A DNA stretch of 64,000 nucleotides, taken from contig NZ_FRCQ01000016.1 of assembly GCF_900142965.1 (NCBI RefSeq), positions 62,001 through 126,000 on the forward strand, given 5' to 3'. The position numbers and the translations under genes are program-made. The notes under the pieces were generated by a model. It saw nothing but the letters and a program-made list of their open reading frames with translations. It was not told the origin of the DNA and did not search any database. The stretch is from Rhizobacter sp. OV335 (lineage in GTDB: Bacteria; Pseudomonadota; Gammaproteobacteria; Burkholderiales; Burkholderiaceae_C). This document shows positions 3,753 to 55,789 of the stretch, piece by piece. The stretch's first letter is position 1. The number at the start of each line of letters is the position of its first letter.

Positions 3753-3819
3753 TCCCATCCTTTCAATGATTCGGTGGAACGGGGAAGCGCTCGTGCGAGC
3801 GCAGGGTTGAACCAGGACT

Positions 3820-10258: not shown

Positions 10259-12775
10259 TCATTCCTGCCGCCTGGCATCCACTGCGTCGAAGGTGAGCCC
10301 GCTCGACCCTTCGCCCTGGCCCACGCGGTTGCGCAGTGAGGTCCACAGCCAAGTCGAGCCGTCCGACCAGCGCGTCAGCCGGCGCTGGCGCGTCACGCGG
10401 GTGCCCTCGCGCGGCACCTCTTCGTCGTACAGCAGCAGCGGCGTGGCAGCGTTCAGCACCTCGCCGACCGAGCTGTGCACCGTCCTCGTGCCGTCGGGCT
10501 GCAGCACCGCGCCTTTTTGCAAGCGCGAGATTACCTGCGCCGGGTTGTTCGGGAACAGCGGGTTCGGCTGCTCCACCGGCAGTAGGGGCACCCAATTGAA
10601 GGGCACGGTGGTGGACAGCCGGTAGTGCGGCCACGCGCTGGTCGGGGCGACGACCGGCGGCGTCGCGTCGGCCGCCTCGTCGCGCTGCGCCGGCTGCTCG
10701 ATCGGGTTCTCGACGCTGCGCTCGACCGCCCAGGCGAGGTTGGCCATTTCGTCGCGCATGAACAGCACCTCTTCGAGCGGCCCGCTGTCGAGGCTGCGGC
10801 CCAGCGATGACGGCAGGAAGAAGCGGTTCACTGCGGTCTTCAGCGCCGAGCCGGCCGGCGGCTGCGCGTAGCTCGGCTGCCACATCGAGAAGTACGGCGG
10901 CGGCAGCGCCGCGTCGCCGATCGCTCGCACCAGGCTGCGCACGCCGAAGGTGTCGGTCACGACGAGCGACTCGACGCGCGTGACCGAGCCGACCGGCAGC
11001 GTCAGCGGCACCGCGAACCAGTCGTTACCGTAGCTGCTGGCGTACTCGATCATCATCAGGTGGGCCAAGTCGGTGGGCCCCACCGGCACCAGCCCGTAGG
11101 CGACCTGGCTGTCTTCCATCTCCCAGAAGCGCGGTGCCGGCGCACCGCGGAAGCTCACCGGTGCCGGGATCGTCGTCTCGACCACCGGCGCGAAGGCTGG
11201 CGACGCCGCGGTGCCCAGTGCCGCCTGCGCATGCACGTCGAAGCTCGCCCAGTCGACCGGGCTGCCGTCGAGTTCTGCGGCCACGTAGGTGATGTCGTCC
11301 TGCGCAGCGGCGGACAGGCGCGTGCCCACCGCCATCGCGTACTCCAGCCGCGACGGCAGCCAGGCATCGCCCGACGCGGAAGTGGGCTCGCTGCACACGG
11401 CGTCGTACCACGCAAGCCACGCCGTCGCGGCAGCCTGCACCTTGGGCTGGTCGACCGCGACGATGGCCAGCAGCGGGTCCGCCGCCAGCAGCGCCGCGCC
11501 GCCGGCGCTGCGCAGGCGGACGGCGAGCACGCGGCCGTCGGGCGCGCGGCCCTGCATGCTGTCGAGGTAGCGGCGCGTGGCCTCGTCGGTGGTCGCGCCG
11601 TCGGGTGGGCGCTGCAGCGCGAGCCGCGCGATGAAGGCGCTGCGGTAGTTCTTGCTCGGCGCCTGCAACTCCAGCATGCGCAGGAAGTGCAGGCCGGCCT
11701 CGACCGCCAGGCTCAGCATGCGGGTATCGCCGGCATCGGCCGGGCGCATGGCCCGCCGCTCGGCGATCACCTCCAGCGGCGTGCGTGCCGGGTCGTAGGG
11801 CGTGCCGGCCACGCTCACGGCGGCCGAACTCGGCGTGGCCGGCCGCGGCAGTTCGCCGACGAAGCTGCGCGTCAGCATGGCGTTGGTGGCGCGCACGCGG
11901 GCCATCGCCGGCGTGCCGGCATCCTCGCCCTGGAATTCGCCCATCTGCCACTGGCGCGTCATCAACCACAGCGGGTCGAACACGCGCGCGCTGGCGCTGA
12001 TGCCGATGTCGGCACCGTTGCTCTGCGGCTCCAGCCGCGTCCAGCTGGTGACCGACGAACTGGTCGGCGCGCCGCTGAGCGTGGTGCGCCCGCCCGGCGG
12101 CACGACGATCGGCGTCTTCGGCTGCACGACGATCGGCTTGGCGATGCTCGACGCCGTGCCGAAGCGGTCGATGGCGTTGACCCGCAGCAGGTGCTGGCCC
12201 GGAGGCACCGGCAGCGAGACGCTCCAGTTCCCGTAGTTGTTGCCGTTGTCGACCACCGACAGCGGGCCCTCGACCCAGCCGTCGACGGCGTACTGCACCG
12301 TCAGGATGGGCGCGTCGATGCCGACGGCCGTGCCGCTGAAGTTCACGGTCTTGGGCAGCTCGTCGGTCACGATCGTCAGCGGTGAATCGGGCGGCGCGAT
12401 CGTCAGCGCAGGGCCCACGGGCGGCGGCAGCACGACCGACACGCTGGCCGATCCGCCGACGTCCTCGATGTCCCACGAGCGGTCGGCCGGGATGAAGAAC
12501 TTGAACGATGCCGAGGCCGACGCGGTGATCGTGATGGGCGTGCTCGGATGGATGCCGGCGGCCGGCGATCCGGTGCACACCCAGCTGGAGTCGGCGGTCA
12601 CGGTGGCGGCCACCGTCGGCCCGTTGATGCCGAACGAGACCGACACGCTGGCATGGCCCACCAGCGTGTGGCCGCCGCTCGGGTGCAATGTGAGGCCGCC
12701 GCGGACCGTGATGCTGCGCGAGCCCACCGTGGTGTTGGGCCCGGGAGAGGTGATGGTGACTGTCAAGGTGGACAT
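10259..12775 (-). CDS. Uncharacterised 838-aa protein with N-terminal Ig-like region (cluster gene 5)
   Basis: Not recognised as a named family. Residues ~1-240 are Val/Thr/Pro-rich beta sequence resembling two or three Ig-like or fibronectin-type domains. The remaining ~600 residues are a different, mainly helical domain opening with a striking stretch, DPLWLMTRQWQMGEFQGEDA near residue 270. I recall similar wording in uncharacterised giant proteins, so it may be a family signature. There is no signal peptide and no membrane segment. The start at 12775 avoids a long overlap with the upstream gene and begins cleanly with the beta domain; only a weak GGA precedes it. It is the last of five minus-strand genes, 23 bases after the 1512-aa gene, so it is probably in the same operon. 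Confidence 0.8.
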   Translation of the reverse strand: MSTLTVTITSPGPNTTVGSRSITVRGGLTLHPSGGHTLVGHASVSVSFGINGPTVAATVTADSSWVCTGSPAAGIHPSTPITITASASASFKFFIPADRSWDIEDVGGSASVSVVLPPPVGPALTIAPPDSPLTIVTDELPKTVNFSGTAVGIDAPILTVQYAVDGWVEGPLSVVDNGNNYGNWSVSLPVPPGQHLLRVNAIDRFGTASSIAKPIVVQPKTPIVVPPGGRTTLSGAPTSSSVTSWTRLEPQSNGADIGISASARVFDPLWLMTRQWQMGEFQGEDAGTPAMARVRATNAMLTRSFVGELPRPATPSSAAVSVAGTPYDPARTPLEVIAERRAMRPADAGDTRMLSLAVEAGLHFLRMLELQAPSKNYRSAFIARLALQRPPDGATTDEATRRYLDSMQGRAPDGRVLAVRLRSAGGAALLAADPLLAIVAVDQPKVQAAATAWLAWYDAVCSEPTSASGDAWLPSRLEYAMAVGTRLSAAAQDDITYVAAELDGSPVDWASFDVHAQAALGTAASPAFAPVVETTIPAPVSFRGAPAPRFWEMEDSQVAYGLVPVGPTDLAHLMMIEYASSYGNDWFAVPLTLPVGSVTRVESLVVTDTFGVRSLVRAIGDAALPPPYFSMWQPSYAQPPAGSALKTAVNRFFLPSSLGRSLDSGPLEEVLFMRDEMANLAWAVERSVENPIEQPAQRDEAADATPPVVAPTSAWPHYRLSTTVPFNWVPLLPVEQPNPLFPNNPAQVISRLQKGAVLQPDGTRTVHSSVGEVLNAATPLLLYDEEVPREGTRVTRQRRLTRWSDGSTWLWTSLRNRVGQGEGSSGLTFDAVDARRQE

Positions 12776-12798
12776 GATCGATCCGTGCTGGAAGCGGC

Positions 12799-15700
12799 TC
12801 AGGCCGCGGGAACCGTCAGCGGCTTGAAATCGGTCGACACCGCGTGGTCGACCGGGTTGAAGGCGAGGTACAGGCCGGGCAGGTGCTGCGCGGCCGCGCC
12901 GAGCGCGCCGGTGTCGACTGCGCGCAGCTTGGACAGGTCCAGTGTTTCCACCAGCACGCGGCGCAGCGTCTCGGTGGTCCAGTCCTGCCCCGGCACCGGC
13001 GGCACGGCGATCAGCACGCACTGCGGCGCAGCCGCGTTCGGCGTGTCGTACTGGAAGGCGAGGCCGGTAGTCTCGCGCGTGGCGGGCACCACCTCCACCC
13101 ATTCGTCGACCAGCAGGCCGGTCAGCACCTGCGCCGGTGCGACCGGGCCGACGGTGTGGACCACCAGCGACAGCTTGCTGGGCGGCAGCGTCGCGCCGTC
13201 CGGCACCGGCAGGCCGACCCAGCGTTCGCCGTTGACCCACGGCAACTGCGCCACGCTGAGCGCGAGCCGCGCCGGCGCGCCGAGCACCTCGGCGCGCTGC
13301 AGGCAGGCGCCCAGCCGGGCGACGCCGTCGCGCACGCGCTCGCTGCGCGCGAACCAGGTGTTGGCGGCCAGCGCATCGCCGCCCTGGGCCTGGGTGCTGC
13401 CGGCCAGCGCGCTGGCCATCTCGGCGGCTCCCGCCGCGGCCAGGCTGAAGCGCGGCAGCACCACGAACGAATTGCCGAACACCGCGCGCAGGCGTTCCAC
13501 CAGCTGGTCGCGTCGCGCCCGCGGATCGGCCGCCACCGGTTGAGAGCGCAGCGCCAGGAAGCGGTCCATGCGCACGCCGCTCAGCTTGAGCAGGGCACGC
13601 GCCTGGTTCGACAGCGCCGCGATCGCGGCCGGGTCTTCGCCGGTCACACTCACCGGCACGGCCGGGTCGAGGCCGAAGGCGCCCAGCTTCACCAGGCCGG
13701 CGCGCAGCTGTTCGGCCGTGGTGGCCGACTTGCCCAGCAGCGTGTCCAGCCCCTTGTGGGCGGCGTTCAGCGCGTTCTCGGCCTGCACCGCGCGGCTCTC
13801 CAGGTCGACCAGGTCGACGCTGCCCTGGCCGCTGCGCTCCGGCGGGTTCAGGTCCTCGGGATCGGCGCCGCGTGCCACGCTGAGCAGGCGACGCACGCTG
13901 CGCGCCTGCTCCAGCAGGTCGAACAGCGTGATCTCGCCGGCCGCCAGGTCGATCGGCCGCGCATGTTGCAGCCGCAGTTCAGCCTGCGCGTCGAAGCCGC
14001 CGGGCTTGCGCCGCACGTAGTACAGCAGCTGCTGCTCGATCACGCTGAGCGCCGCGGGCTGGCCTGCAGCGGGCGTCGCGACGCTGTTCGGCGCCTCGAC
14101 GCCGTAGACCATGTCCAGCGCTGTGATCGACACCGTCGACAGCTCGCTCAGGGGGAGCCGGCGTGTCTCCACGACCTGTCCGGCGGCGTCCAGCCGCTCG
14201 ATGGTGCAGCGCACCTTGGCCGCGTCGCCCAGCAGCTTGCCCACCCAGAAGTTCAGCAGCTTGTCGGCGCGCGAGCGCATGCCGGCGTCGCCGGCCTGCC
14301 AGCCGGGCGTGCCCAGGTTGGCGGTGCCGCTCATCAGCACCAGCAGGCGGTGCGTGAGCGCAGTGCCGGTGCGCGGCGTGCGCGTGACGTCCAGCTGCGG
14401 CGGCGGGGCATTGCCGTCGGCGATGGCCGCCAGCGTGCCGGCCAGCCGCGTGGTGTTGCCGCGCACCATCTGGTAGGCCGTCTCGGCGGTCAGCGCGTCG
14501 CCCAGGCCGTCGATGCTGTCGCCGATCCGGTCGAGCAGCGCGCTCAGCGCGGCGAGTTCGCCGGCGCTCGGCGCCAGCGCCGTCAGCACGTTGAGCACCG
14601 TCGCGCGCTCTTCCTTCCAGCGCCGGCTCAGCACCTGGCCGTCGACCACGTTGGCGGCCGCGATGGTCTCCAGCGGCGCGCTGCTGCCGGATGCGGGCCG
14701 CGCCACCAGCGGCGCCAGGCGGCGCAGCGGCGCGATGAAGCGGTCCAGGTGCAGGCCGGCGTCAACCACCGTGTCGTGCAACGCGCGCTCGAAGCGGTAG
14801 CCGAGCAGCGCACCCAGCGGCTGGCCCTGGCGCATGCCGTCGAGCAGCCGGTTGGCCTCTCGCACGCGGCGCGACGAGAGGTCGATGGCGAACGGCCCGT
14901 CGGCCGCCGGCACGCCGGTGGTGCCCAGCTGCGCATTGCGCAGCAGCGCGGCGGTGGCCGCATGCGTCAGCGACGGAGCGTGGATGAAGCCGCTGTCGTT
15001 GGCTGCCGTCTGCAGCGGGCCGGGCTCGCCGGCGGGCAGCACGCTCACCGCCTTCACGTTGGCCGCCGGCATCGGCCGCAGGTTCTCGACCCAGCCGTAG
15101 GCGCCGACGGTCTGGCCTTCGGTGTGCATGGCCGCGAGGCGCTTGGTGGCGACCGAGGTCACCCAGGCATCGAGCCGGTGGCCGGACAGGTCCAGCGTGC
15201 CCTGCATCAGGTGCTGCAGCGCTTCGCTGTCCAGGTCCTTCAGCCGGCCGAGCGCGAGGCGCATGCCGCGCAGAGCGGCGAGCCCCGACGCGTCGAAGTC
15301 CGTCTGTGCGTCCAGGAAGGCGCGCAGCGTGCCGCTGCCTTGCGGGCTGTCGAGCAGGCGCAGGCTGTGCGGCGTGGCGGCCGCGCCGGCCACCAGGTCG
15401 ATCAGCTCGGCGTCGCGCAGCAACGGGCCCGGGTCCGCGCCGGTGGCGGCGGCCTGCAGCTGGGCCGCGGCCTGCACGATCTCGCGCAGCAGCGCATGGC
15501 GCAGCAGGGTCTGCAGCAGGCTGAAGCCGGCGCCGTCGCCTTGCGGGTCCGGGCGCATCGCGGTCAACGCATCGATCTTCGCGGCCAGCAGGTCGGCGAT
15601 GTAGTTGGGCGCCAGCGGCGCCCACGGCGAAACCTCGCCGGCCTGCACCAGCGGCACGTTGACGCGGAAGTTCCAGTTCGCGTTCCACAGGTGCGCCGAG

Positions 15701-17337
15701 CGCGGGCGCCACACCAGGCCCAGCCGCTGCAGCAGGCTGGCCTGCGCCGGGTCGCTGTCGGCGATGCTGGAGGCCACCAGCCGGTACAGGTGCGACAGGA
15801 AATGCCGGCCGAAGACGCTGCGCGCGCCGTAGGCGTTGGACAGCGCATCGGTGCGCATCACGTCGACCAGGTCGGCGTCCGGGTCGGGCGGCGCCTGGCG
15901 GCTGCCGATGCGCGCCGCCGATGCGGCGGCGGGGCGCCACACCTGGTCGCGCAGCGTGACCAGCATGCCCTTGAGCCAGCTGTCCTGCGCGGTGACGGCC
16001 TCGCCCGCGCCGGGCTGCCACAGGTCGAGCGAGGTCACGGGCAACAGGCCGTAGGGCTGCGGCCCGCAGCTCAGCGTGGGGAAGGGGCCGAAGCAGCGCA
16101 CGTGGTCGGTGAAATGCGTGCGCGCCCAGGTGATGTCCGGCGTGGTGAGACCGGACTCGCTGCCCATCATGTTGCCGAGGAAGTAGCCCCAGCCGACCTG
16201 CCACAGTGCGGTGTTCATGCAGCGCATGTCGGTGTCGTCGTGGGCCATGCCGCGGTCGATGCGCGCGAGCGTCGGCTCGATGCGGTCGAACGGCAGGCCG
16301 AGCGCGGTGCCCACCCGCAGGGCGTTGCTGGGCACGGGACTGGCGATGGCGGCGGTGCTCTGCGTCTGCAGCGCGAAGCTGCGCTGCTGGCCGGGATCCT
16401 TGCTGCTGTAGCCGGTGCGCCGGTCGTCCGAGTTGTTGGTCGGGGTGCCCGGGCGCAGGAAGGCCAGGCCGTCGGTGTAGTGGTGTGCATCCAGCAGGTC
16501 GGCCAGCTGGCGGGCGCTGTCGGCAACGCTCAGCGAGCCGGCCACGCCGAACACCACCAGGCTGTCGAGTCCGGCCGCCAGCATGGCCGGCGTGACCGTG
16601 ATGCGCAGCGCCATGCCGAGCTGCTCGGCGGCGCTGAAGTCGACCATCCAGTTCATCCCGGGGTCGATGGCGAGCTTCTCGCCCGCCTTGACGGCGGCCT
16701 CGGTCGCCGCGTCCATCGGCACGGCGTGCGGGTCGGGGTCGGGCCCGACCGCCAGCGAGCCGTGGATGTCGGCGCCGCTGACGCTCGCCACCACGCGGCC
16801 GCCCGAATGCAGCACCGCCATGAAGCGGTCCGGCAGCAGGCGGGCCTGCGGTGGGTGGCGCCAGGTGGCGTCGCTCGTGGCCAGCGCAATGACCGGGAAC
16901 AGCGGTGGCGTCGCGAGCGCCTGGCCGGCCGGCGTGGGCGCAGCCGGGCGCTGCGCCGCGTTGGTGGGCTGCAGCACGCGGGCGATCCACGCGGCGCGGG
17001 CCGCACCGACGCGGTCGGCGATCTGCCGCCACGCATCGGCGCGGGCCGCGTCCGCGTCGCCGGCCGACCAGTCCTGCACCCAGTAGTGCCGGCCCCAGGT
17101 CTGCTCGTCGGCGGTGAGGTCGCGCTCGTGGGTGTCGATGTGGATCTTGTCGGGGTACACGCGCACGCGCAGTTCGGTGCTGCCGTCGGCCTGCGGGAAG
17201 AAACGCGTCTCCAGCCGCACCGGCAGCAGCACCAGCGGCACGTCGCTGCGGCACAGCACGGCGGGCGGCGGGCCGTTGTCCGGCGCGGCGGGAGCGGCGG
17301 GGATCGCGAGGCTGCTGTCGAAGAGATCTTTGCTCAT
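12799..17337 (-). CDS. Uncharacterised 1512-aa giant protein (cluster gene 4)
   Basis: The largest gene of the cluster. The N-terminal ~120 residues hold the most distinctive sequence: [12 protein letters not shown] followed by [20 protein letters not shown] and then GRHYWVQDW. The rest is Ala- and Leu-rich, apparently helical, with no transmembrane segments, no signal peptide and no catalytic motif I can identify. Near residue 430 [20 protein letters not shown] may be a second conserved block. It lies 18 bases after gene 3 and 23 bases before gene 5, so the three are probably translated from one message. Such size without export signals suggests a cytoplasmic scaffold or part of a large assembly, which is a guess from composition. 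Confidence 0.82.
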
Positions 17338-17355
17338 GGGTCGGAGTCCGTCAGG

Positions 17356-20154: not shown

Positions 20155-20163
20155 GGCATGGCC

Positions 20164-23100
20164 TCAGGCGAGGAGTTCATGGGCGGGCAGGAGCTGGTAA
20201 AGCGCCTTGCCGCGGTTGAGGGTGGAGAGGGCGGCGTGCTGCTCGCTCCAGGTGGCGGCACCGGCGAGCGCGGGCAGCGCTGTGCCGCCGGTGTTCGCGG
20301 CGATGCGCCACTGGGGGGCCTGCAGCGTCGCCGCCGGTGCAGCGACGCTGCTGCGGAAGCGGGCCCGCCCGACCTGGCGCACCGGCGCGCGCGCGGCCGA
20401 GCCGCTGCGGCTGAAGGCCGGCAGTTGCGCGGCGGGCAGCACATAGGGCGCGGACACGGCGGCCTCGCCGACCACGACGGTGCGGTAGCCGAGCGTCGCG
20501 GCCACGCTCTGCGGCGCATCGATCAGCAGGGCGGTGCTGCCGAAGACGCAGCCGGCATCCATCGTCTCGAAGGCGGGCGCGGCGAGCCGCTGGTCGTCGG
20601 TCATCGTGAAGTACTGGGCCGGCGCGAAGGCCGCCGCCCGGGCCGTGCTGGCGAGCGGCGCGCCATTCATCGAGGCCGTCACCGCGAAGCGCCGTGCCCC
20701 CAGCACCGGCGCTCCACCGAAGGTGTCGATGTCGCGCGCCGTGTTCAGCGGCACCACCTGCTGCGTGACCGACAGCCGGCCCAGCGGGTCCAGCACCAGC
20801 GCGCTCGACGGCGGCAGGCTGCGCAGCGCGACACCATGCGGATGGTCGGCGCTGCGCTCGATGCGCCACGCGCTCGGCGCCACCAGGGCCTGCTTCAACT
20901 GGGCAAGCACGTCCACCGCGTCGGGCAGTGGAGGCGGCTCGCCGCTGACCAGCGTGGCATCGAAGTGCACCGAGAAGTGGAACCAGAAGATCTTGAAGCT
21001 GGCCTTGCCGCTCAGGCGCAGCGGACGTGGCCCCTCCAGCTCGCCGGCCAGCTCGACCATGAACAGGTTGTACGAGCCGCGCTTGAGCTGCAGCCTGGCG
21101 TGGTAGTCGGCGATGAAGTGCAGCGGCGCCAGTTGCACCAGCACGTCGAAGCCGACATCGCCCTCGACGCTGAAGCCCGCGGCGCTGGCATACAGCGACG
21201 CATGCGCACCGAACTGCACCGTGTTCGACGTGATCGCGAAGTAGGCGTCGCACACCAGGCGCGGGTTGTTGCCCGAGCTGAGCGCGATGGCCACGCGGTC
21301 CAGCGCGGGGAAGCCCGCGGGCGGTGCGAAGTGCGGGTTCAGCCCGCCCACGGCCAGCACGAAGCTCGGGCCGGAGGCGAAGCCCGCGCGCAGCGCGGCC
21401 GACCCGGTGATCGCGAACTTGTGCGCCAGCCGCGAGTCGACGAGCACCGCATCGACCGCGGCCGTGCCGGCATCGAAGTCGATGACGCCCATCGCTTCCA
21501 TGTTCAGGCGCACGAGGTCGTTGGCCGCCGACGGCAGCAACGCGCTGATGCGCCCGAGCGCAAGCAGCCGGGTGCGCGAGCCGAACTCCAGGATCAGCGC
21601 CAGGTCCATCAGCACCAGCGTCGGCGTGAACCAGCCGATGCGCGCCAGCAGCCCCAGCAGGTAGCTGCCCCGGCGGGCCGGGAAGGCGGCCGCCAGCGAG
21701 CGGATCAGCGCCGGTGCATTGCCCACCGGATCGCGCGGGAACAGCAGCGTGGCCAGCGTGCCGTTCCTGAGGCCCTGGCGCATCACGTCCTGGTCGAAGC
21801 TGCGGTTCACGCCCACCATGCCGCCGATGCCCAGCAGCGTGAAGCCCAGGCCCAGCGGGATCGGCTGGAAGTCCTCGGCGGTGATGAACACCAGCAGCGA
21901 GTAGCCGCGGCTGCCGTCGGGCAGCCGCGTGGCGATCAGCCCGAAGGCCTTCAGCGTGATGCGCTCGTGCAGCGACAACTGCATCGCGCCGGCGTACAGG
22001 CCCTGCGCCTCGTCGTGGAACAGGAAGCCACCGCCCGTCAGCACGCCCTGCGCGTCGACCGTCAGGCCGATGCCGCTCGGGGGCTTGAAGCCGAGTCCGA
22101 CGTCCAGCGGTCCGAGGTTGCCCACCGGCGGATCGGGGAAACGGGCTGCGAGCCGCAGGCCGGTTGCATCGGCCAGCACCCGCACCGGCCCGAGCCGCCC
22201 GCGCACCGACGCGCCCACATCGAGGTCCAGCCCCTGCGCGTTCGGTGTCAGGCCGAGCGTGACCGCATCGATGTCCAGCGGCCCCAGGCGCAGCCCGACC
22301 GGGAAGCGGCCTTGCAGCCCGCCCGAGCCGCTCAGGTGGAAACCGCTCAGGCTGGACAGGCGCAAGCCCACCGAGAATTCGGCCGAAATCCCGTCGGGCC
22401 CGAGCAGGCTGGCCATGAACGAATCGGTGTCGTCGGCCGACGGCTTCACCGCCAGGTGCAGCTTTTCGAGGCCCAGTTCGACGAACGCATCGAGCGCACC
22501 TGCCGACGCCACGCCGGCCGACAGCGTCACGCTGCGCATCGCCAGCCGGCTGCGGTCGGCCGCACCCAGCAGCACGCGCTCCGCGTCGCCCGCGGGCGGC
22601 GGCACGCGCAAGTCCAGCTGCAGGCGCGTCGGCGACGCAGCGGCGGGTGGATTGCGCAGGAAGCCCGCATCGACCTCCAGCGCGCGACCCGGCGCCCAGG
22701 TGAGCGCGAAGCCCTGCGCGAGGTCGGCGTCGCCGCTGATTGCCAGCGAGATCTGGCTGTCATCAGTGCTCGCCGTGCCGGCGCCGAGCGTCGCGAACGG
22801 CAGGACTGCGAGGGCCTCGCCGCGCTGGGCGGTGGCCGGTCGCAGCAGCAACTGCAGGCCGGCCTCGCTGCCGGCCTGCAGGCCCAGCGTCTCGTTGAAG
22901 TCCAGCCGGACACCCAGCGCTTGCGCCGGCCCTTGCGTGGATCCGGCAGATGCAAAGGCGAGCTGCCCGGGGTCGAGTTTGAAATAAGAGAGGTCCAGCC
23001 CGGCGCCTTCGATCACCGCCGCGATGTCGCCGAAGGCCTGGGCCCGCTGCGGCGCCGCCGAGATCCAGGCGTGGCTGTCGCGGAACCCGGCCACCGGGTC

Positions 23101-23607
23101 GGTGAGCAGCGCCCCCACGCGCGGCCAGTCGATGCGCCGCTGCGTGAAGGCCAGCCGCCGCCCGCTGGCAGGCTGCGCGACCAACTGCACGATGCCGGCC
23201 AGCTTGAGCCAGCGGCCGATCCGGTAGCGGCGCCCCAGCAGGTGCTCGACGATGACGTGGTTCAGCAGGTCGCGTGCGATGGTGGCCTTGAACGCGGCGA
23301 TGTCCACGCTGTCGGGAAAGGCGCTGTCGGGCTGCGTGCCGATGGCCTGGAGGGCGTTCACCAGCGGCGCGATGGACGCGAGCAACCCGGCGCCCGAGCG
23401 CTCGCCGGGCTCCGCGGCCAGGGCATCCAGCAGGCCGGCACCAGCGGCCGCAAGGGCCTGCAGCGGGGCCGGAACCGAGGCGGTGGCCCAGCCCAGTTCG
23501 CGCAGCAGCGCGATGCAGGCGTCGGGCTCGTGCGCCGCCTCGACCAGCGGGGCCAGCGCCAGCACCACGTCGTCGATCAGCCCGCGCAGCAGTTCGGTGT
23601 CGTTCAT
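20164..23607 (-). CDS. DUF6603-like giant protein, 1147 aa (cluster gene 2)
   Basis: Probably a DUF6603-type protein, judged from memory of recurring phrases: LGLGFTLLGIGGMVGVNRSF, then a stretch with GYSLLVF, and LSVTQQVVPL near the C-terminus. The first ~200 residues are helical; the middle is a long run of beta-repeats (alternating LxLGxLDVDAV-like strands) suggesting an elongated beta-structure; the end has an FTMTDDQRL..PAFETMDAG segment. No signal peptide or membrane helix is visible. Its ATG overlaps the stop of the serine-hydrolase-like gene as ATGA, so the two are translationally coupled. Function unknown. Confidence 0.8.
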   Translation of the reverse strand: MNDTELLRGLIDDVVLALAPLVEAAHEPDACIALLRELGWATASVPAPLQALAAAGAGLLDALAAEPGERSGAGLLASIAPLVNALQAIGTQPDSAFPDSVDIAAFKATIARDLLNHVIVEHLLGRRYRIGRWLKLAGIVQLVAQPASGRRLAFTQRRIDWPRVGALLTDPVAGFRDSHAWISAAPQRAQAFGDIAAVIEGAGLDLSYFKLDPGQLAFASAGSTQGPAQALGVRLDFNETLGLQAGSEAGLQLLLRPATAQRGEALAVLPFATLGAGTASTDDSQISLAISGDADLAQGFALTWAPGRALEVDAGFLRNPPAAASPTRLQLDLRVPPPAGDAERVLLGAADRSRLAMRSVTLSAGVASAGALDAFVELGLEKLHLAVKPSADDTDSFMASLLGPDGISAEFSVGLRLSSLSGFHLSGSGGLQGRFPVGLRLGPLDIDAVTLGLTPNAQGLDLDVGASVRGRLGPVRVLADATGLRLAARFPDPPVGNLGPLDVGLGFKPPSGIGLTVDAQGVLTGGGFLFHDEAQGLYAGAMQLSLHERITLKAFGLIATRLPDGSRGYSLLVFITAEDFQPIPLGLGFTLLGIGGMVGVNRSFDQDVMRQGLRNGTLATLLFPRDPVGNAPALIRSLAAAFPARRGSYLLGLLARIGWFTPTLVLMDLALILEFGSRTRLLALGRISALLPSAANDLVRLNMEAMGVIDFDAGTAAVDAVLVDSRLAHKFAITGSAALRAGFASGPSFVLAVGGLNPHFAPPAGFPALDRVAIALSSGNNPRLVCDAYFAITSNTVQFGAHASLYASAAGFSVEGDVGFDVLVQLAPLHFIADYHARLQLKRGSYNLFMVELAGELEGPRPLRLSGKASFKIFWFHFSVHFDATLVSGEPPPLPDAVDVLAQLKQALVAPSAWRIERSADHPHGVALRSLPPSSALVLDPLGRLSVTQQVVPLNTARDIDTFGGAPVLGARRFAVTASMNGAPLASTARAAAFAPAQYFTMTDDQRLAAPAFETMDAGCVFGSTALLIDAPQSVAATLGYRTVVVGEAAVSAPYVLPAAQLPAFSRSGSAARAPVRQVGRARFRSSVAAPAATLQAPQWRIAANTGGTALPALAGAATWSEQHAALSTLNRGKALYQLLPAHELLA

Positions 23608-24950
23608 AGCGTCAGCAAGGCGTTGTGGACGGCAATGCCCAGCGCCTCGCTCTTCTGCGAAGCGCCCAGCGCGGCGTCGGAAATGAGCCCGACGGCGACC
23701 ACCGCGTACTTCATGACCGAGCGATGGGGCGCCGCGGGGGCGGGGTTCTGCAGCGTCTCCACGTAGACGAACTCGGCCACCAGCGGCGACTTGGCACCGT
23801 CCGACTTCTTGAGGATGCCGATCTTGTTGAGCTGCCGGGTGACCCGTGTGGCCGGGGTGCCTTTGATGCCGCCCAGTGTGTTCGACGGGTCCGCGCCGTC
23901 GACGAGAAAGCTGACGATCGCCTGGGCGCCGCCATCGGAGAGGTTGGTGCGGATGTCCTCGCAGGCATCCAGCCCGGCGACCAGTCCGCCGGCGTCGGCG
24001 AAGGCGTCGGTCATCAGCGCGGTCATGAAGGCGGCCAGCGCCGCGGCCGAGCCGGGCACCCACGACCTGTTGTCGGTGAAGCCGCCGGCGCCGTCGCGCC
24101 ACCAGTCGTTGACCTTGATCGGGTCGACCCCAGTGAGCGGGCGCGGCGGCGAGGGCGGCGGCGGCTTGCGGCGGTCGGGGTAGGGCGCGTACCCGCTGGT
24201 CGGGTACAGGCTCATGCCGTGCGCCAGGTCCGCCAGCCCGTAGGAGCGCAGCACCGCCTTGATGTAGGGCACGCCGATCTCGGCCGCGCAGGCGGTGGCG
24301 GCCACGTTGTCCGACAGGCTGCCGGTGAGCCAGAAGCGTTCGGAGAAGGCGAAGGTCGAGGCCTTCTCCCATGTCAGCTCGCCGCCGGTGGCGGTCAGGC
24401 GGCTGGTGATGGCGGTCTTGTGGGCGGGCAGGTTGGCCTGCTTCGGATCGGGGCCGAAGAAATCCACCGGGTGCTTCGCGAAGTCGAAGATCTTCGAGAT
24501 CTGCGGTGCAGCGGCCGGGTCGGCGATCTCCAGCATCTCGCTGCGCGGGCTCTTGCTGCGCGACCACAGCTTGCGGTTGCTGAACAGTGCATCGAACTCG
24601 GCCGGCGTCGAGACGATGTGCAGGTCAAGGATCTTGCGCACGTCCAGCCGCAGCTGCACTGCGGCCAGCATCATCGCGATCTTGCTGGCGCTGCCGATGC
24701 GAAACGGCAAGTCGCCGTTGTGCATCCAGACCAGCGGGTGCATCGGGTCCGCGGTGAAGTCGATCACGCCGATGCCGGCGGCCCCCAGGTCCGGGTCGGT
24801 GCCGATCCAGTCGAGCGCGGCGCTGAGCTTGGCGGCCGCGGGCGACCCGGTGCTCGTCACCGGCTTGGGCAGGCGCGTGGTCTTGCGATCGCGCATCACG
24901 AAGATGACATCGGCGATCTGGTCGAGCTGGGCATCGGTCGGCGTGGCCAT
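23604..24950 (-). CDS. SxxK serine-hydrolase-like (beta-lactamase/PBP fold) protein (cluster gene 1)
   Basis: First gene of the five-gene unit, 448 residues from the ATG at 24950. The likely catalytic motif is SASK at about residues 87-90 within PFRIGSASKIAMML, which matches the SxxK serine/lysine pair and following helix of the penicillin-binding/class A beta-lactamase fold. A partner SxN/YxN and KTG-type motif could not be assigned with confidence. There is no signal peptide, which is odd for this superfamily, most members being exported. A start ~29 codons upstream exists but adds only a Pro/His-rich leader. The stop overlaps the next start in ATGA. It could be an inactive or repurposed member. 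Confidence 0.7.
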   Translation of the reverse strand: MATPTDAQLDQIADVIFVMRDRKTTRLPKPVTSTGSPAAAKLSAALDWIGTDPDLGAAGIGVIDFTADPMHPLVWMHNGDLPFRIGSASKIAMMLAAVQLRLDVRKILDLHIVSTPAEFDALFSNRKLWSRSKSPRSEMLEIADPAAAPQISKIFDFAKHPVDFFGPDPKQANLPAHKTAITSRLTATGGELTWEKASTFAFSERFWLTGSLSDNVAATACAAEIGVPYIKAVLRSYGLADLAHGMSLYPTSGYAPYPDRRKPPPPSPPRPLTGVDPIKVNDWWRDGAGGFTDNRSWVPGSAAALAAFMTALMTDAFADAGGLVAGLDACEDIRTNLSDGGAQAIVSFLVDGADPSNTLGGIKGTPATRVTRQLNKIGILKKSDGAKSPLVAEFVYVETLQNPAPAAPHRSVMKYAVVAVGLISDAALGASQKSEALGIAVHNALLTL

Positions 24951-25089
24951 GGGTCGGCGTGGAGGATGATGAGGCGTGGGGAAGGTCTTTTGCGGCTGTC
25001 CTGGGTGAAATCGGAAAGCACGGACATTTACTGCCACGATCCCCTAGTTTTAGGATGAGCCCGCCGCGCTGACTCAGCACAATCGGTGC
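24951..25089. promoter_or_regulatory. Divergent intergenic region between the giant-protein operon and sigma/kinase genes
   Basis: The only gap from which both the minus-strand operon and the plus-strand sigma-kinase pair can be transcribed (139 bases). It is less GC-rich around 25045 (CCCTAGTTTTAGG). Neither start codon has a good Shine-Dalgarno. An ECF-type promoter recognised by the adjacent sigma factor would be expected here, but I cannot define its -35 and -10 elements by eye. Confidence 0.5.
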
Positions 25090-25626
25090 ATGAGCGACGC
25101 CACGAACATCCTTTCCGCGCCCGCGCAGGACCAGCAGTTCCATGCGCTGTACGCCGAGTTGCACCGGCTGGCGCGCCGCGAGTCGCGCCGCTACGGCGAT
25201 GCGCAGGGCATGGGCCCGACCACGCTGCTGCACGAGACCTACCTGCAGATGTCGCAGCGCCGGTCGCTGGTGTTTCCCGATCCGCAGCACTTCATGGCCT
25301 ACGCGTCGCGGACCATGCGCGGCCTGGTCATCGACCGCCTGCGGGCCGGCCAGGCGCAGCGGCGGGGCGGTGCCTTCAGCATCACCTCGCTGGACACCCA
25401 GACCGCCGAGGCGGTGCAGGATCCCGACACGCTCGACAACATCAGCCGCGTGCTCGACGAGCTGGCGCAGCTCGAGCCCGAACTGGCCCAGGTGGTGGAC
25501 CTGAAGTTCTTCTGCGGCTTCACGATGGCCGAGATCGCCGGGCAGCTGGGCCTGTCCGAACGCACCGTGCACCGCCAATGGGAAAAGGCGCGCGGGCTGC
25601 TGTACCTGCGCCTGAAGGAAGATTAG
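25090..25626 (+). CDS. ECF-type RNA polymerase sigma factor (ECF43/TIGR02999-like)
   Basis: Alternative sigma factor of 178 residues. Region 2 is visible as PTTLLHETYLQM and FMAYASRTMRGLVIDRLRA. Region 4 ends with a helix-turn-helix, MAEIAGQLGLSERTVHRQWEKAR. This wording (HETYL..., ASRTMR..., TVHRQWEKAR) is typical of the subgroup encoded beside Ser/Thr kinases rather than anti-sigma factors. The kinase gene begins at the base after this stop codon, so the two are surely co-expressed. It likely directs transcription of the divergent giant-protein operon; that is inference from layout. Confidence 0.92.
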   Translation: MSDATNILSAPAQDQQFHALYAELHRLARRESRRYGDAQGMGPTTLLHETYLQMSQRRSLVFPDPQHFMAYASRTMRGLVIDRLRAGQAQRRGGAFSITSLDTQTAEAVQDPDTLDNISRVLDELAQLEPELAQVVDLKFFCGFTMAEIAGQLGLSERTVHRQWEKARGLLYLRLKED

Positions 25627-28398
25627 GTGGAATTGCCCGACCAGGCGCGCTGGCAGCGCCTGAGCGCCTGCCTCGACGAACTGATGGACCTGCAGGACGG
25701 TCCGCGGGCCGAGCGCCTGCGCGCGATGCGCCGCGAGGACGCGCTGTTCGCGACCGAGCTCGAAACGCTGCTGGCCGCCAGCGACCGCTCAGGCGCCCTG
25801 CGCTTTCTGACGGGCACGGCTAGCGGCCCTGCCCGTGACGTGCCGCCGCCGCTGAAGGGCCAGCGCATCGGTGGCTATGCGCTGCTCGAGCCGCTCGGCC
25901 AGGGCGGCTCTGGCAGCGTGTGGCGGGCACGCAGCCTGCATGGAGGCCAGGGCGAGGTGGCGGTCAAGCTGCTGCACCTGTCGCTGCTCGGACGCAGCGG
26001 TGCGCAGCGCTTCCAGCGCGAAGGCGAGATCCTGCGGCGCCTGTCGCACCCTTGCATCACGCAGCTGTCAGCCACGGGGGTAACCGAGTTGGGCCAGCCC
26101 TACCTGGTGCTGGGCTTGGTCGAGGGCGAGCGCATCGACACCTATTGCGACCGGCTGCGGCTGGACGTCGAGCAACGCCTGGCCTTGTTCGGTCAGGTCC
26201 TGTCGGCCGTCGCCTACGCGCACAGCCACCTGGTGATCCACCGCGACATCAAACCCACCAACGTGCTGGTCACCCGCGAAGGCGAGGTGAGGCTGCTCGA
26301 TTTCGGCATCGCCAAACTGATCGACGAAGCCGATGCCAGCGCGTCGACGGCCACGCCGCTCACGCACGAGGGCGCCCATCCGATGACCCCCGAGTTCGCT
26401 GCGCCCGAGCAGATGCGCGGCGACGCGGTGACCACAGCGACCGACGTCTACGCGCTGGGCGTGCTGCTGTACTGGTTGCTGACCGGCCGGCATCCCATGG
26501 TCACCGGGCACGCCACGGCACAGCAGGTGCTGCAGGCGGTGCTACATGACGAACCGGCGCCGCTGACCGCCACCGAATACCACGGCGGCGGCGACGCGGC
26601 CCTGGCCGCTGCCCTGCAGCGCGGCACGACGCCAGCCGGCCTGAAACGCCAGCTGTCGGGCGACTTGCAGAACATCGTCGCACGGGCGCTGCAGAAGGAT
26701 CCAGCGCGCCGCTACGCCACGCCAGAAGCACTGCACCAGGACCTGCAGCGCTTCCTGGCGCACCAACCGGTCAGTGCCCGGCCGGACTCGTTCGCCTACC
26801 GCTGCGGCAAATTCGTGCGGCGCCACCAGCGCTACGTGGCCTTGTCCGCGGCCCTGGTGCTGAGCCTGGTTGCGGGCCTCGCGGGCACGGTCACGCAGGC
26901 CTGGCGCGTCCACGAGCAGGCACGGCAGGCTCGCATCGAGCGCGACCATGCGCTGCAGGACCTTGCCTTCGCGTCGGCGGCGCAGGAACTGCTGACCTTC
27001 GTCGTCAGCCAGAGCAGCGAGCAGGCCTTGACGGCCGCCCAACTGCTCGAACGCGCCGAGGCCATGGCCGACCGGCAGTTCGCCGGCGATGCGTTGACGC
27101 GCGGGCGGCTGCAGCTCGCGCTCGGCGTGGAGTACGCCAACGTGCGCGACATGGCGCGCTACAAGGCATTGCTGCTGAAGGCCCAGGCGTCCGCCCGCAT
27201 TGCCGGCAACGTGCCGCTGCTGGCGAATGCCGACTGCCTGCTGGGCCGCGTGGTCGGCGAGCAAGGCGAGCCCGAGCGTGCGATGGGCCTGCTCGGCGAG
27301 GCCCTACGGCGCATACGGGCGATGCCAACTCCCGACACTGGCGCGGTGATCGACTGCCTGCACGCGCGGGCCGACCTCGAGCTGGTGCTGGACCGGCCGC
27401 AAGCCGCGCTGGCGGATGCGCAAGCCGCGCTGGCCTTGCTGCCGGCGCCGCGGCCCGACCAGCGGGCCGTCCTCAACACGCTGCGCATCTCGATCGGCGA
27501 GGCTTACGGCAGGCTCGGGCAGATGGCCGACGCCGTCGCCGCCTACGAAAACGCGCTGGCCGACATGGCTGCGCTGGGTCTACAGCAGACGCCCCGCACC
27601 GCCGTGCGCTACAACAACCTGGGCCGCATGCTGAACCTTGCCGGCCGACCGCGGCCGGCGCTGGCCGCGCTGGAACAGGGGTTGCTCATCGCGCGCGGGG
27701 TGTCGCCGCAGAGCGAGCTGTTGAGCATCCTCGAAGGGCACCGGGTGCGCTCGCTGATCGAATTGGGCCGCCACGACGAGGCGCAGGCCGTCACCGAGCA
27801 GGCGCTTGCCGCCGCGGTCCAGCGCCAGGACGTGCTGCGAGAGGGCACGCTGGCGCTGTACGGTGCGCCCGCCTGGTGCGAGAGGGGGGAGCTCACGCGC
27901 TGTGCAGCGATGCTGGCGCGGGCCCGCGACCGGCTCGGCTCGGTGCTCAAGCCGGCGCATGCCACCTGGGGTGTGGTCGACTGCGTGGCGGCGCAGTTGT
28001 CGCAGGCCTCCGGGCAATGGGCGCTGGCAGGCGCGCAGCTGCGGCACGCCGTGGCGGTGTTCGATGCTGCGGCCGACGGCAACCCGCTGCGCATCCGTGC
28101 GCTGGCCCGGCTGGCCGACGTGGAGCGCCATGACGGGGACTTGCCCCAGGCGTCGCGCCATGCCGAGCAGGCTGTCGCCCAGGCGCGCGAGGCCGCGAAG
28201 GGTTTCGCCAGCACGCAGTGGCTGGGCATCGCACTCGGTGCACTGGCCCAGGTGCGGCTGGCACAAGGGCAGGGCAATCAGGCGCGCGCGATGCGGGAGG
28301 AAGCGGCGGTGCAGTTGGCAGGCGCGCTTGGGCTGAACGCGGCCGAGGTGTCTGCCGGATACAGCGGTCTTCGAGATCGATCGCAACCAAGTCGTTGA
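25627..28398 (+). CDS. Membrane-anchored Ser/Thr protein kinase with TPR-like C-terminal region
   Basis: PknB-type (Hanks) kinase of 923 residues with a GTG start directly after the sigma-factor stop. The kinase domain covers about residues 85-375: glycine loop GQGGSGSV near 91-98, VAVK near 111-114, catalytic HRDIKPTN at 205-212, DFGIAK at 225-230, and an APEQ-type activation segment end. One transmembrane helix follows at about 400-420 (ALVLSLVAGLAGTV). The last ~480 residues are helical repeats resembling tetratricopeptides, predicted outside the cytoplasm. The ~80-residue N-terminal extension before the kinase is usual for the ECF43-linked group. Expected to phosphorylate the sigma factor and so activate it. 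Confidence 0.93.
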   Translation: MELPDQARWQRLSACLDELMDLQDGPRAERLRAMRREDALFATELETLLAASDRSGALRFLTGTASGPARDVPPPLKGQRIGGYALLEPLGQGGSGSVWRARSLHGGQGEVAVKLLHLSLLGRSGAQRFQREGEILRRLSHPCITQLSATGVTELGQPYLVLGLVEGERIDTYCDRLRLDVEQRLALFGQVLSAVAYAHSHLVIHRDIKPTNVLVTREGEVRLLDFGIAKLIDEADASASTATPLTHEGAHPMTPEFAAPEQMRGDAVTTATDVYALGVLLYWLLTGRHPMVTGHATAQQVLQAVLHDEPAPLTATEYHGGGDAALAAALQRGTTPAGLKRQLSGDLQNIVARALQKDPARRYATPEALHQDLQRFLAHQPVSARPDSFAYRCGKFVRRHQRYVALSAALVLSLVAGLAGTVTQAWRVHEQARQARIERDHALQDLAFASAAQELLTFVVSQSSEQALTAAQLLERAEAMADRQFAGDALTRGRLQLALGVEYANVRDMARYKALLLKAQASARIAGNVPLLANADCLLGRVVGEQGEPERAMGLLGEALRRIRAMPTPDTGAVIDCLHARADLELVLDRPQAALADAQAALALLPAPRPDQRAVLNTLRISIGEAYGRLGQMADAVAAYENALADMAALGLQQTPRTAVRYNNLGRMLNLAGRPRPALAALEQGLLIARGVSPQSELLSILEGHRVRSLIELGRHDEAQAVTEQALAAAVQRQDVLREGTLALYGAPAWCERGELTRCAAMLARARDRLGSVLKPAHATWGVVDCVAAQLSQASGQWALAGAQLRHAVAVFDAAADGNPLRIRALARLADVERHDGDLPQASRHAEQAVAQAREAAKGFASTQWLGIALGALAQVRLAQGQGNQARAMREEAAVQLAGALGLNAAEVSAGYSGLRDRSQPSR

Positions 28399-30026: not shown

Positions 30027-30686
30027 ATGACACTCCGCCATTACGACCGCTACGGGGGCCGCAAGGGCCGCTACAAGCTGGGCTTCAAGCGCATCCTGGA
30101 GCTCTTCGATCCCTGGGAGCACAGGACGCTGCAGTTCCGCGATGAATGGTCGCAAGACCTCTGGCTGCTGCGGCGCTCCGATCTCACCGTCAAGAGCATC
30201 GTGGTCGACCCGAAGCCGCTGGAGTACCTGAGCCTCGGCATCCGTCGCCGCGGCGTGGCCGACCTGGCCATCGAAGTGCCCCGCGGGACGGTCTACGAGG
30301 CCCTCGGCCGTGGGCCTGACGCGTCCGACGCCGAGTGCCACGCCGAACTCCACCGCGCTGCGGAACTTCATGGCGTGCGCAGCAGCGTTGTGCCACTCGC
30401 GGAGCTTCGGGGCCGCTCGAACCTGATCCAGAACATGGAGCATGTGCGCCAGGTCCTCGTGATGTGGCACGACCGCGACCTCAGCGCGGTCCAGCACGGC
30501 GTGCTTGATGCGTTGAAGGGCGGCGCGCTCACGCGGGTCGCTCTGCGCGCCGAGCTGTCCGAACAGGCGGGCGAGGCCGCGGTCCAGGGGCTGGATGCCG
30601 CGATCTTCCGGCTCCATTTCTCGCGGCAGGTCCGCGTTGATCTTGACGGGAGGTACGACGATGACTGCGTCATCCATCGCCTCTAG
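30027..30686 (+). CDS. tnsA: TnsA-like transposon endonuclease, possibly catalytically degenerate
   Basis: First gene of the core, 219 residues from an ATG with a strong AGGAGGGA site eight bases upstream; an earlier ATG at 29913 would add 38 residues and lacks such a site. Position and pattern fit TnsA, the 5'-strand nuclease: FRDEWSQDLWLLRRSD resembles the helix with the catalytic Glu (E40), and GVADLAIEV carries a possible Asp (D79). Where TnsA normally has a VxVK-type strand with the catalytic lysine, this protein has TVYEALG. The nuclease may thus be inactive, or the alignment wrong. The last 26 bases overlap tnsB. Confidence 0.65.
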   Translation: MTLRHYDRYGGRKGRYKLGFKRILELFDPWEHRTLQFRDEWSQDLWLLRRSDLTVKSIVVDPKPLEYLSLGIRRRGVADLAIEVPRGTVYEALGRGPDASDAECHAELHRAAELHGVRSSVVPLAELRGRSNLIQNMEHVRQVLVMWHDRDLSAVQHGVLDALKGGALTRVALRAELSEQAGEAAVQGLDAAIFRLHFSRQVRVDLDGRYDDDCVIHRL

Positions 30687-32745: not shown

Positions 32746-32766
32746 TGCCGCGAAGGAACCAACATC

Positions 32767-33768
32767 ATGAACCAGTCTGAAACCCTGACCCCCGAGCGCC
32801 CCGACGTTCAATCAGCCGCGGCCGAACTTGTTTCGGAAGTGTTCGATTCCGACATCCTCGGGGATACCGATGTCTGGACTCCGGCCATCGACCGGCTCAT
32901 CTCTTCGGTATCCCGATGGATCCGCATGGACAGCCCTGGGGCTGCTGTGTACGGCCCGCAGCGCACCGGCAAGACGCACGCGTGCCAGTTCTTGCAGGCG
33001 GCGCTTCCCACCTTATTCGGCAGCACGATCACCGTATTGCTGCTGACGCTTGGGGGTGGCGTCAAGAGCGAGCGCGCGTTCCTGCAGCACGTGATGGCGA
33101 ACGTGAAGTGCAAATCCTACTTGTCGCGCGATGACGAGGTGCTTCGCGACCGGCTTGGAGAACACCTGTACGACACCGCGATCGCCAACGGATCCAAGCG
33201 CATCGTGCTGGTCTGGGATGAGGCGCAGAAGCTCACCGAACCGCAGTACGGGTGGCTCATCAGCCTGTTCAACGAGCTCGAGCATCGCAAGCTCCGACCC
33301 TTCTTCCTGCTGGTGGGGCAACCTGAGCTGCGGGACGTCTCGCAGGCGTTCCGCTCTATCGGTTCGCAGCACGTGATCGGCCGATTCTTCAGCAACCAGG
33401 TTGAGTTTGCCGGCATAGAGGACTCCGAACTTCGAGAGGTACTGCGCGCCCTCGACACCGAGGACGCCGATGGCGCGGGCCCGCGGCGCTACATGCCCAC
33501 GCAATACGCCGAAGGCTTCGAGCTGGAATCGCTTGCCGAACCGCTCGCTCAGGCGCTGGATGTGCTGCGCAATCGCCATCAGTTGGTTCAAGGGGTGCGT
33601 CTGCCGATGCAGTACCTGCGCTCGGCCGTGCTGGTCGCGCTCATGAAGATCATGCACGGGGAGGTCGACCATCGCAATGTCAGTTCCGCAACCATGCTCG
33701 ACTGCCTGAAGGAGACCGGTTTCCTCAACGTCGTGGTGGTCTACGCTGAACTGATGTCGGAACTCTGA
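32767..33768 (+). CDS. tnsC: TnsC/TniB-like AAA+ ATPase
   Basis: Regulatory ATPase linking target choice to the transposase; 333 residues. Walker A is GPQRTGKT at 63-70, and Walker B is IVLVWDEAQ with D151/E152. A sensor-like stretch FFLLVGQPELRD follows, as in TniB. The C-terminal ~100 residues are helical. It is 21 bases after tnsB, and its stop overlaps the tniQ start in TGATG. Confidence 0.9.
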   Translation: MNQSETLTPERPDVQSAAAELVSEVFDSDILGDTDVWTPAIDRLISSVSRWIRMDSPGAAVYGPQRTGKTHACQFLQAALPTLFGSTITVLLLTLGGGVKSERAFLQHVMANVKCKSYLSRDDEVLRDRLGEHLYDTAIANGSKRIVLVWDEAQKLTEPQYGWLISLFNELEHRKLRPFFLLVGQPELRDVSQAFRSIGSQHVIGRFFSNQVEFAGIEDSELREVLRALDTEDADGAGPRRYMPTQYAEGFELESLAEPLAQALDVLRNRHQLVQGVRLPMQYLRSAVLVALMKIMHGEVDHRNVSSATMLDCLKETGFLNVVVVYAELMSEL

Positions 33769-43217: not shown

Positions 43218-43341
43218 GATGCACCTCGCGAGCAAGCTCAGGGGCGCAGTATGTGACCGTGACGGAGTCTCGTCCACCAGATGGCCGAGCTGTCACCAGC
43301 AATTGGTACTTCGAGCGCTGCGGGCGGCGTTGTTGGCTGGG

Positions 43342-47710: not shown

Positions 47711-47798
47711 GGGCGACGCTCTGTGCGCCTGCGTCGGCATAGCGCACGGCGCTGAAGCACCGTGCGACCGACTGCAGCCGGAGCGTCGAGACGAAGCG

Positions 47799-48164: not shown

Positions 48165-48229
48165 GATTCCTTGGTGTGAGGTTGGCGGCAACGCTCGCCG
48201 CAAGAGGTGGGATTGCTGTCGCCGCGGCG

Positions 48230-51574: not shown

Positions 51575-51579
51575 CGGTC

Positions 51580-54705: not shown

Positions 54706-54776
54706 ACGCGCGAATGCTCGATGGTGTACCAAGGCTGTCGAAGACCCTGAGCAGTCCGCGCAGGCGCGACCTCGCG

Positions 54777-55730: not shown

Positions 55731-55747
55731 GGGGTGGGCGCCAAAGG

Positions 55748-55763
55748 CTGTTGATTCATACAG
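55748..55763. promoter_or_regulatory. LexA binding site between DUF72 and helicase genes
   Basis: Perfect CTGT-N8-ACAG (CTGTTGATTCATACAG) in the 59-base gap between two divergent starts (55730 and 55790). One box can control both genes. Confidence 0.85.
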
Positions 55764-55789
55764 TATATGATCGGGCCCGAGATTGAGCC

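Follow-up and report, generated by a model that had tools for sequence, protein, structure and literature searches.

The region analysed here is a 64,000-nucleotide stretch of the Rhizobacter sp. OV335 genome (contig NZ_FRCQ01000016.1, positions 62,001 to 126,000 of the forward strand), hereafter the window. It contains a run of five closely spaced minus-strand genes, designated A to E, which are considered as a candidate modular enzyme-carrying system. These genes, their recognizable parts, and the divergently transcribed genes beside them are as follows.

24950-23604, minus strand: A, 448 amino acids, reads through
23607-20164, minus strand: B, 1147 amino acids, reads through; DUF6603
20154-17356, minus strand: C, 932 amino acids, reads through; candidate chassis protein
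17337-12799, minus strand: D, 1512 amino acids, reads through; candidate chassis protein
12775-10259, minus strand: E, 838 amino acids, reads through; candidate chassis protein
12056..12775, minus strand: E N-terminal extension, ~residues 1-240, with weak Ig/CBM-like matches far under the cut-off
10259..12055, minus strand: E core, ~residues 241-838, conserved
24951..25089, no strand: divergent intergenic region of 139 bases between A and the sigma factor
25090-25626, plus strand: ECF-type sigma factor (PF07638 and TIGR02999 matches)
25627-28398, plus strand: Ser/Thr protein kinase with TPRs (Pfam)

A preliminary description of this DNA had reported five minus-strand genes with 9-23-base gaps or an ATGA overlap, and this agrees with the open reading frames (ORFs), in which A and B overlap by ATGA and the later genes are spaced by 9, 18 and 23 bases; the coordinates likewise bear out a sigma/kinase pair facing away across 139 bases. 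B was described as DUF6603-like and matches DUF6603 (PF20248) at E 3e-124, with 415.7 bits against a Pfam gathering cut-off of 27 and covering profile positions 2-501 of 502; it alone among the five proteins has a firm family name in Pfam, NCBIfam, PHROGs or PADLOC. Serine beta-lactamases and penicillin-binding protein-like enzymes carry SxxK, SDN and K[ST]G motifs. A, which had been called SxxK hydrolase-like, fits the first two with S87xxK90 and an SDN at 213, the sole candidate at the third position being a KSDG stretch at 382, and it scores 21.0-21.3 bits against Beta-lactamase2 (PF13354), just under the cut-off of 22. D and E may have a domain of ~100 residues in common (a weak profile-profile match; E 1e-4, probability 54%), and profile comparison finds no homology between C and D or between C and E. 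Homologous E ORFs are mostly 525-690 amino acids long, and are without the N-terminal extension of the window E.

Conservation of the B-C-D-E chassis

Searching GTDB genomes with a C profile confirms relatives in 540 of 569 candidate stretches, and the best 80 of the 540 were used for locus analyses. Adding 12 plasmid or phage records along with the window itself gives 93 loci, in which profiles of B to E find 91 B, 95 C, 98 D and 86 E ORFs (of which 48, 64, 27 and 34 respectively were aligned). All four genes are held by 77 loci, and in 76 of these they lie on one strand in the order B-C-D-E, counting as collinear a phage-collection scaffold (L011) whose sorted order 'CBDE' is caused by ORFs that run too long where its contig stops; the remaining 16 of the 93 loci miss a gene, in most cases next to the end of a contig. 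The sole order exception is a Leptolyngbya locus (L038:9992-22886) reading C-D-E-A-B, with a PhoD-like A still directly before B. Among 37 whole genomes chosen for having C, B is on the same contig and at most 10 kb from C at 43/43 C loci, and weak DUF6603-like matches far from C are present in three of the 37. The OV335 genome itself has a second complete cluster, E-D-C-B-A (C17:131619-147535; L099:3620-19536), ~5.6 kb past the window end and with a PhoD-like A.

On these comparisons the four genes B, C, D and E constitute a conserved chassis, and not part of one five-gene unit. The expectation in the preliminary description that all five genes co-occur thus holds for B-C-D-E and fails for A, which is replaced elsewhere by unrelated enzymes. 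Its broader proposal of a real, uncharacterised and conserved multi-protein system is supported by the loci of the relatives, and the odd motifs that it quoted are located in conserved stretches of the alignments; a large assembly is still plausible. The regulator fares poorly, as the sigma factor is found at 0/92 other loci (in flanks reaching no further than 10-20 kb, often truncated by contig ends) and is absent beside the second cluster in the same genome, and the kinase matches at 2/92 other loci are generic. No match to a sigma-70-like promoter or terminator is found in the 139-base region. We regard the sigma/kinase pair as local neighbours, with the sigma factor apparently a local regulator at most, and a five-gene unit with a dedicated sigma factor and kinase is rejected.

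Several variations accompany this common architecture. An extra coiled-coil-looking gene lies between C and D in three Nitrospira loci (L048:12644-13450, L049:2615-3421 and L053:4709-5515), and the genome of L097 has a further full-length B ~14 kb from C, past E (G389:C9:138312-141722), perhaps in a downstream A-B cassette. A second cluster in the genome of L065 (G371:C14:38467-45188) has a B match with three in-frame stops next to a stop-free C, and is perhaps a decaying copy. There is no recurring downstream partner: 36 downstream or inserted ORFs match 83 Pfam families, and the commonest, Por_Secre_tail, is in three of them (among the matches listed, 25 of the 83).

An exchangeable enzyme upstream of B

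The position directly before B is occupied by proteins of diverse types. A Pfam scan of 53 A-position proteins, with 93 loci available, finds PhoD in 12, M64 in eight, S8 in five, PLDc_2 in three, and galactose-oxidase-like and Beta-lactamase2 domains in two each, with single matches to DUF2515, NAL1 domains, Trypsin_2 and (marginally) AbiJ_NTD4. Clustering of 66 A proteins gives nine singletons and eight classes with at least two members; trypsin/NAL1-like and S8 proteases fall together in the largest class, and were split by motif for later tests. The expected catalytic motifs are largely intact, with HExxH in 10/11 proteins of the M64 class, DDHE in 14/16 of the PhoD class, and HxK4D in 5/5 of the phospholipase D (PLD) class. 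The window A has one distant relative in the slot, from Candidatus Goldiibacteriota (L035; 25% identity over 188 columns, E 5e-7), in which both the SxxK and SDN motifs are aligned and which scores 33.6 bits against PF13354, above the cut-off of 22. By domain content and motifs, A is an interchangeable enzyme slot that holds a predicted SxxK serine hydrolase in the window.

One A class has no Pfam match and contains long internal hydrophobic stretches (KD19 2.77 and 2.54; L015:8462-11215 and L037:4385-6388), and perhaps represents membrane-inserting cargo.

Constant and variable halves of B

The B proteins are built from a variable N-terminal half (N-half) and a constant C-terminal half (C-half), with the variable half tracking A, an organization absent from the preliminary description. 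The corresponding segments of the window B are as follows.

22123..23607, minus strand: B variable half, ~residues 1-495, presumed cargo-matched adaptor region
20164..22122, minus strand: B constant half, ~residues 496-1147, DUF6603, modelled as a long amphipathic beta-strand meander

The contrast is seen within the OV335 genome, where a further contig, C62 (L100:1-5877), carries the end of a B gene with 99.5% DNA identity to the window B over 1730 bases, followed by a PhoD-like A and the start of another B, which rejoins the window sequence near residue 495 (218 bases, 94.5%). The window and C62 B proteins are 12-33% identical per 60-residue window over residues 1-480 and 98-100% identical from residue 541 onward. 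Tandem arrays of the form A-B-A'-B'-C-D-E are present at five Nitrospira loci, and in 5/5 the two B genes have a common C-half block of 1737-1860 bases with 86-99.9% DNA identity, beginning at ~codon 519-523 of the first copy; the N-halves of these tandem copies are 15-39% identical per protein window, with no DNA match at E 1e-10. These alignments place the boundary between variable and constant segments near residue 500.

Both ends of C62 meet the window B at one point (21903/21905), which could reflect a second cassette at this site, an excised circle, or an assembly collapse.

The relationship between the N-half and the enzyme class is apparent in three sets of comparisons. The first uses 66 A-B pairs (12 of 78 B proteins without an assigned A being left out) in 2145 comparisons, keeping C62, the tandem copies and one joint trypsin/NAL1 and S8 class, and controls relatedness through the C-half alone. 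For a given C-half identity, pairs from one A class exceed the others by 5.4 points in N-half identity, a residual that 0/2000 label shuffles reach, and where C-halves are at least 70% identical the N-halves are 73% identical in same-class pairs (n=20) versus 25% in different-class pairs (n=24). The second uses 62 B proteins, excluding C62 and second tandem copies and dropping pairs with at least 60% identity, such that 199 same-class and 1606 different-class pairs are scored in 80-residue windows; the class association has z values of 3-9 across B residues 1-480 and of -3 to 3 in other windows of B, C, D and the E core (E is represented by its core, there being too few sequences for residues 1-240). 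The third draws on the same 62 B proteins and is confined to 51 loci with a same-class partner at C-half identity below 60%, of which 46 have a same-class nearest neighbour by N-half and 17 by C-half, compared to a mean of 14% and a maximum of 33% with shuffled labels.

A identity also correlates with N-half identity, given C-half identity, in four classes (partial r 0.54-0.96). A Methylocaldum B is an example: it belongs to the M64 class and its N-half is nearest to M64-class B proteins of Verrucomicrobiota, Bacteroidota and Nitrospirota, and its C-half is nearest to B proteins beside other enzymes (L027, the two clusters of the window genome, and L020). As judged from these alignments, B residues 1 to ~500 follow the enzyme class and the rest of the chassis hardly does, which provides a testable rule, that the first half of B predicts the kind of enzyme next door.

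Predicted structures

An AlphaFold2 model of C has good overall scores (pLDDT 86.4, pTM 0.76), and has no fold match at E <= 0.001 in either the PDB (best E 0.18) or a viral structure library (best E 0.16). The model of B is moderate (pLDDT 78, pTM 0.54), and has a helical N-terminus followed by ~30 strands, most of which have one face nearly without polar residues. Foldseek matches of B are mostly to large beta-barrels (ushers, LptD and SlpA), with ApoB matching more weakly; because the TM-scores are below 0.3, B and the beta-barrels share a strand pattern and not a fold. As modelled, B is a long amphipathic beta meander and no more, and since it is present in archaea and Gram-positives and has no signal peptide, it is unlikely to be an ordinary outer-membrane protein. 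Remote homology of B to E to PDB entries was also sought by profile, and was set aside, the matches being at chance level or to coiled coils and designed helices only.

Distribution

The best 80 genome loci come from a broad range of hosts, which from their record titles we take to represent the Pseudomonadota, Bacillota, Nitrospirota, Actinomycetota, Chloroflexota, Verrucomicrobiota, Bacteroidota, Myxococcota, Cyanobacteria, Acidobacteriota, Gemmatimonadota, Goldiibacteriota and Ignavibacteria, with one Nitrososphaerales archaeon. C is also present in 13 plasmid records (of which 11 were analysed as loci), adding haloarchaea, streptomycetes, Rhizobium, Nocardia, Paraburkholderia and Gemmatirosa. 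Near the host it is rare: 1/60 relatives has C, namely the Rhizobacter sp. OV335 genome itself, and among 299 genomes of the host phylum there is a strong match in this genome only, together with three weak partial matches. The genes are carried by hundreds of genomes and, where annotation was seen, are mostly labelled 'hypothetical proteins'.

Two scans of IMG/VR yield 0 confirmed relatives. The phage collection contains one record, MT835531.1 (L011), an UNVERIFIED 'Bacteriophage sp.' faecal scaffold with B (cut), C, D and E, which may well be a bacterial scaffold given the lack of confirmed IMG/VR matches. A phage or virus particle is rejected on these grounds, together with the viral structure search with C.

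Probable site of action

By a crude ad hoc rule, signal peptides are scored in 0/30 B, 0/64 C, 2/27 D, 0/34 E and 4/53 A-position proteins. The chassis proteins are poor in cysteine, with medians of 0.09% in B, 0.34 in C, 0.29 in D and 0.32 in E versus 1.01 in other ORF picks. Adhesin- or lectin-like additions are seen among the 34 E proteins, with an LTD in one, PA14 and F5/8C in another, and a LamG-like match below the cut-off in a third. Because signal peptides are few, B to E are cysteine-poor, some E proteins carry these additions, and the cargo is of a secreted type, the assembly probably works outside the cell, after non-Sec exit or lysis.

Relationship to known effector systems

Type VI secretion systems (T6SS) include effector-adaptor-VgrG modules with DUF4123, DUF1795 or DUF2169 adaptors, and their effectors include phospholipases D. 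Rhs loci can carry extra effector cassettes in tandem, and both Tc toxin complexes and extracellular contractile injection systems (eCIS) combine several giant proteins, enzymatic cargo, and target-binding domains on some members. The cluster described here is like the T6SS modules (the subject of PMC6684961 and PMC10433429) in that one machine serves many enzymes by means of adaptors or carriers matched to each, but A to E have no T6SS or phage-tail domain and the chassis is found in Gram-positives and archaea as well. It is also like the C-terminal displacement of Rhs and polymorphic toxins (the subject of PMC2935791 and PMC3967940) in that a constant part stays and an effector part is exchanged. 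Unlike in Rhs, the exchanged unit here consists of the upstream gene A and the N-half of the B protein encoded after it, and A to E have no Rhs match. There are several giant proteins, enzymatic cargo and target-binding-like domains on some members, as in Tc and eCIS, but B to E have no convincing match to a solved chain, C has no fold match, and A to E contain no sheath, tube or ATPase. Searches of A to E in Pfam, NCBIfam, PHROGs and PADLOC find no sheath, tube, baseplate or ATPase domains (the flanking genes of the window being partly scanned), and those in Pfam and NCBIfam find no RHS/YD repeats or Tc domains.

An anti-phage system was considered and rejected by PADLOC, which has no match for A to E of the window. 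No paper on DUF6603 (PF20248), of which B is a member, and no description of its function were found in the literature searched, and concept searches gave nothing or, among the papers listed, work on T6SS or Rhs, although work under other names, in uncovered journals or in preprints may exist. With a variable putative effector joined to a constant carrier, the system appears to behave like polymorphic effector systems, and no defining structural component of T6SS, eCIS, Rhs or Tc is found in A to E.

A proposed modular enzyme carrier

The conserved gene order, the exchange of A, the co-variation of A with the N-half of B, the boundary at ~500, the tandem arrays, and an A-B pair that remains intact downstream of E at one locus are observed directly, and the modular architecture that they suggest is very likely correct. 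We favour, with rather less assurance, a modular enzyme carrier in which B would link an exchangeable enzyme to C-D-E. In such a carrier B-C-D-E would be a fixed chassis and A one of many interchangeable enzymes; the N-half of B (~500 residues) would recognise or house its own A, and the constant DUF6603 half would dock on C-D-E. A and the N-half would form one cassette, because the N-half would match its own A and the C-half would dock on the chassis, and this cassette could be replaced through recombination at the constant B half, with several tandem A-B pairs sharing one C-D-E set. E would be the target-binding part, and release would occur by lysis or some other route. Delivery to a target has slightly less than an even chance in our estimation. 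More tentative is the complete proposition, against which the odds lean, of an extracellular enzyme-delivery assembly of bacteria and archaea with no recognised phage-tail part, in which DUF6603 is half docking and half cargo-specific and the enzyme is changed by homologous recombination between tandem cassettes.

Various observations weigh against the carrier or its parts. Binding, secretion and a particle are predictions from sequence, and none of A to E has an export signal, pore, ATPase or sheath that is recognised. No immunity gene is recognised: nothing is encoded between A and B, and no family recurs downstream, in a look that did not take in the small ORFs upstream of A at several loci. 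The cysteine baseline is noisy and the A proteins, at 0.83%, are not cysteine-poor; the adhesin-like additions are in few E proteins; and the BGTF surface domain annotated in two D proteins of haloarchaea was not reproduced by Pfam. The A pick at L007 is in the wrong frame (the annotated upstream gene being on the other strand), and those at L023 and L095 perhaps are too. Weaker class signals also arise for B 801-880 and for D 1-80 (z 3), and there is a signal of opposite sign for C 481-560 (z -3). Finally, the SxxK-class loci (the window and L035) are not mutual nearest neighbours by B N-half, and the window N-half is nearest to M64-class B proteins, which leaves the class rule without proof where the window A is concerned; the 25% identity between the window and L035 enzymes may be too distant for the rule to apply.

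Among the alternatives, C-D-E could form an extracellular coat, a surface or matrix layer of the producer, with B tethering the enzyme for feeding or envelope remodelling. This keeps the modular carrier and overlaps the preferred reading, so our likelihoods need not sum to one. The cargo enzymes are of a secreted, macromolecule-degrading type, a BGTF surface domain is annotated in the two haloarchaeal D proteins (with the reservation above), and PA14, F5/8C, LTD or LamG-like domains are on a few E proteins, all in keeping with such a layer, but with few Sec/Tat-like signals and a matched adaptor half more elaborate than surface display requires, we consider it unlikely.

Anti-phage defence systems commonly join one core to variable effectors, proteases and PLD among them. 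B-C-D-E could similarly be an intracellular scaffold or store that keeps the enzyme in the cytoplasm and activates it under stress, much as in a defence or metabolic megacomplex whose effectors vary, and both this shared pattern and the paucity of signal peptides are as such a scaffold would have them. The lack of a PADLOC match, the absence of nucleases and TIR domains from the 17 Pfam families of the 53 A-position proteins (with one marginal AbiJ_NTD4), the lectin- or adhesin-like additions on a few E proteins, and the low cysteine of B to E argue the other way, and we think it unlikely that the enzyme is retained in this manner. That the link between A and the N-half is shared ancestry only, with the A genes as ordinary neighbours, is contradicted by the present data and very hard to credit, for although A class is partly confounded with lineage in the sample, the link survives both the C-half covariate and the dropping of pairs with at least 60% identity, near-identical C-halves in one genome carry N-halves ~25% identical, and the two halves of the Methylocaldum B point to different relatives, M64-class proteins of three other phyla and B proteins with other enzymes.

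If the modular carrier is correct, bacteria and archaea would have in common a new system for delivering cargo or displaying enzymes, one in which cargo is changed naturally. Should the delivery reading fail, the conserved chassis of four proteins and its seemingly recombining enzyme slot would still be unexplained biology that is directly testable.

Other genes in the window

Elsewhere in the window there is a GH10 glycosyl hydrolase gene (960-3758) whose product has a C-terminal dockerin match (26.4 bits versus a cut-off of 22.9). A gene with a Mu-transposase C-terminal domain (by Pfam on that gene) followed by two closely spaced ORFs (30595-35090) resembles a transposition module, and a large serine recombinase with Resolvase and Recombinase domains is encoded at 41322-43277. 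Genes for LigD (880 amino acids), a DNA polymerase III alpha-type protein (1041 amino acids) and a UvrD-like helicase (701 amino acids) are clustered at 45068-57895.

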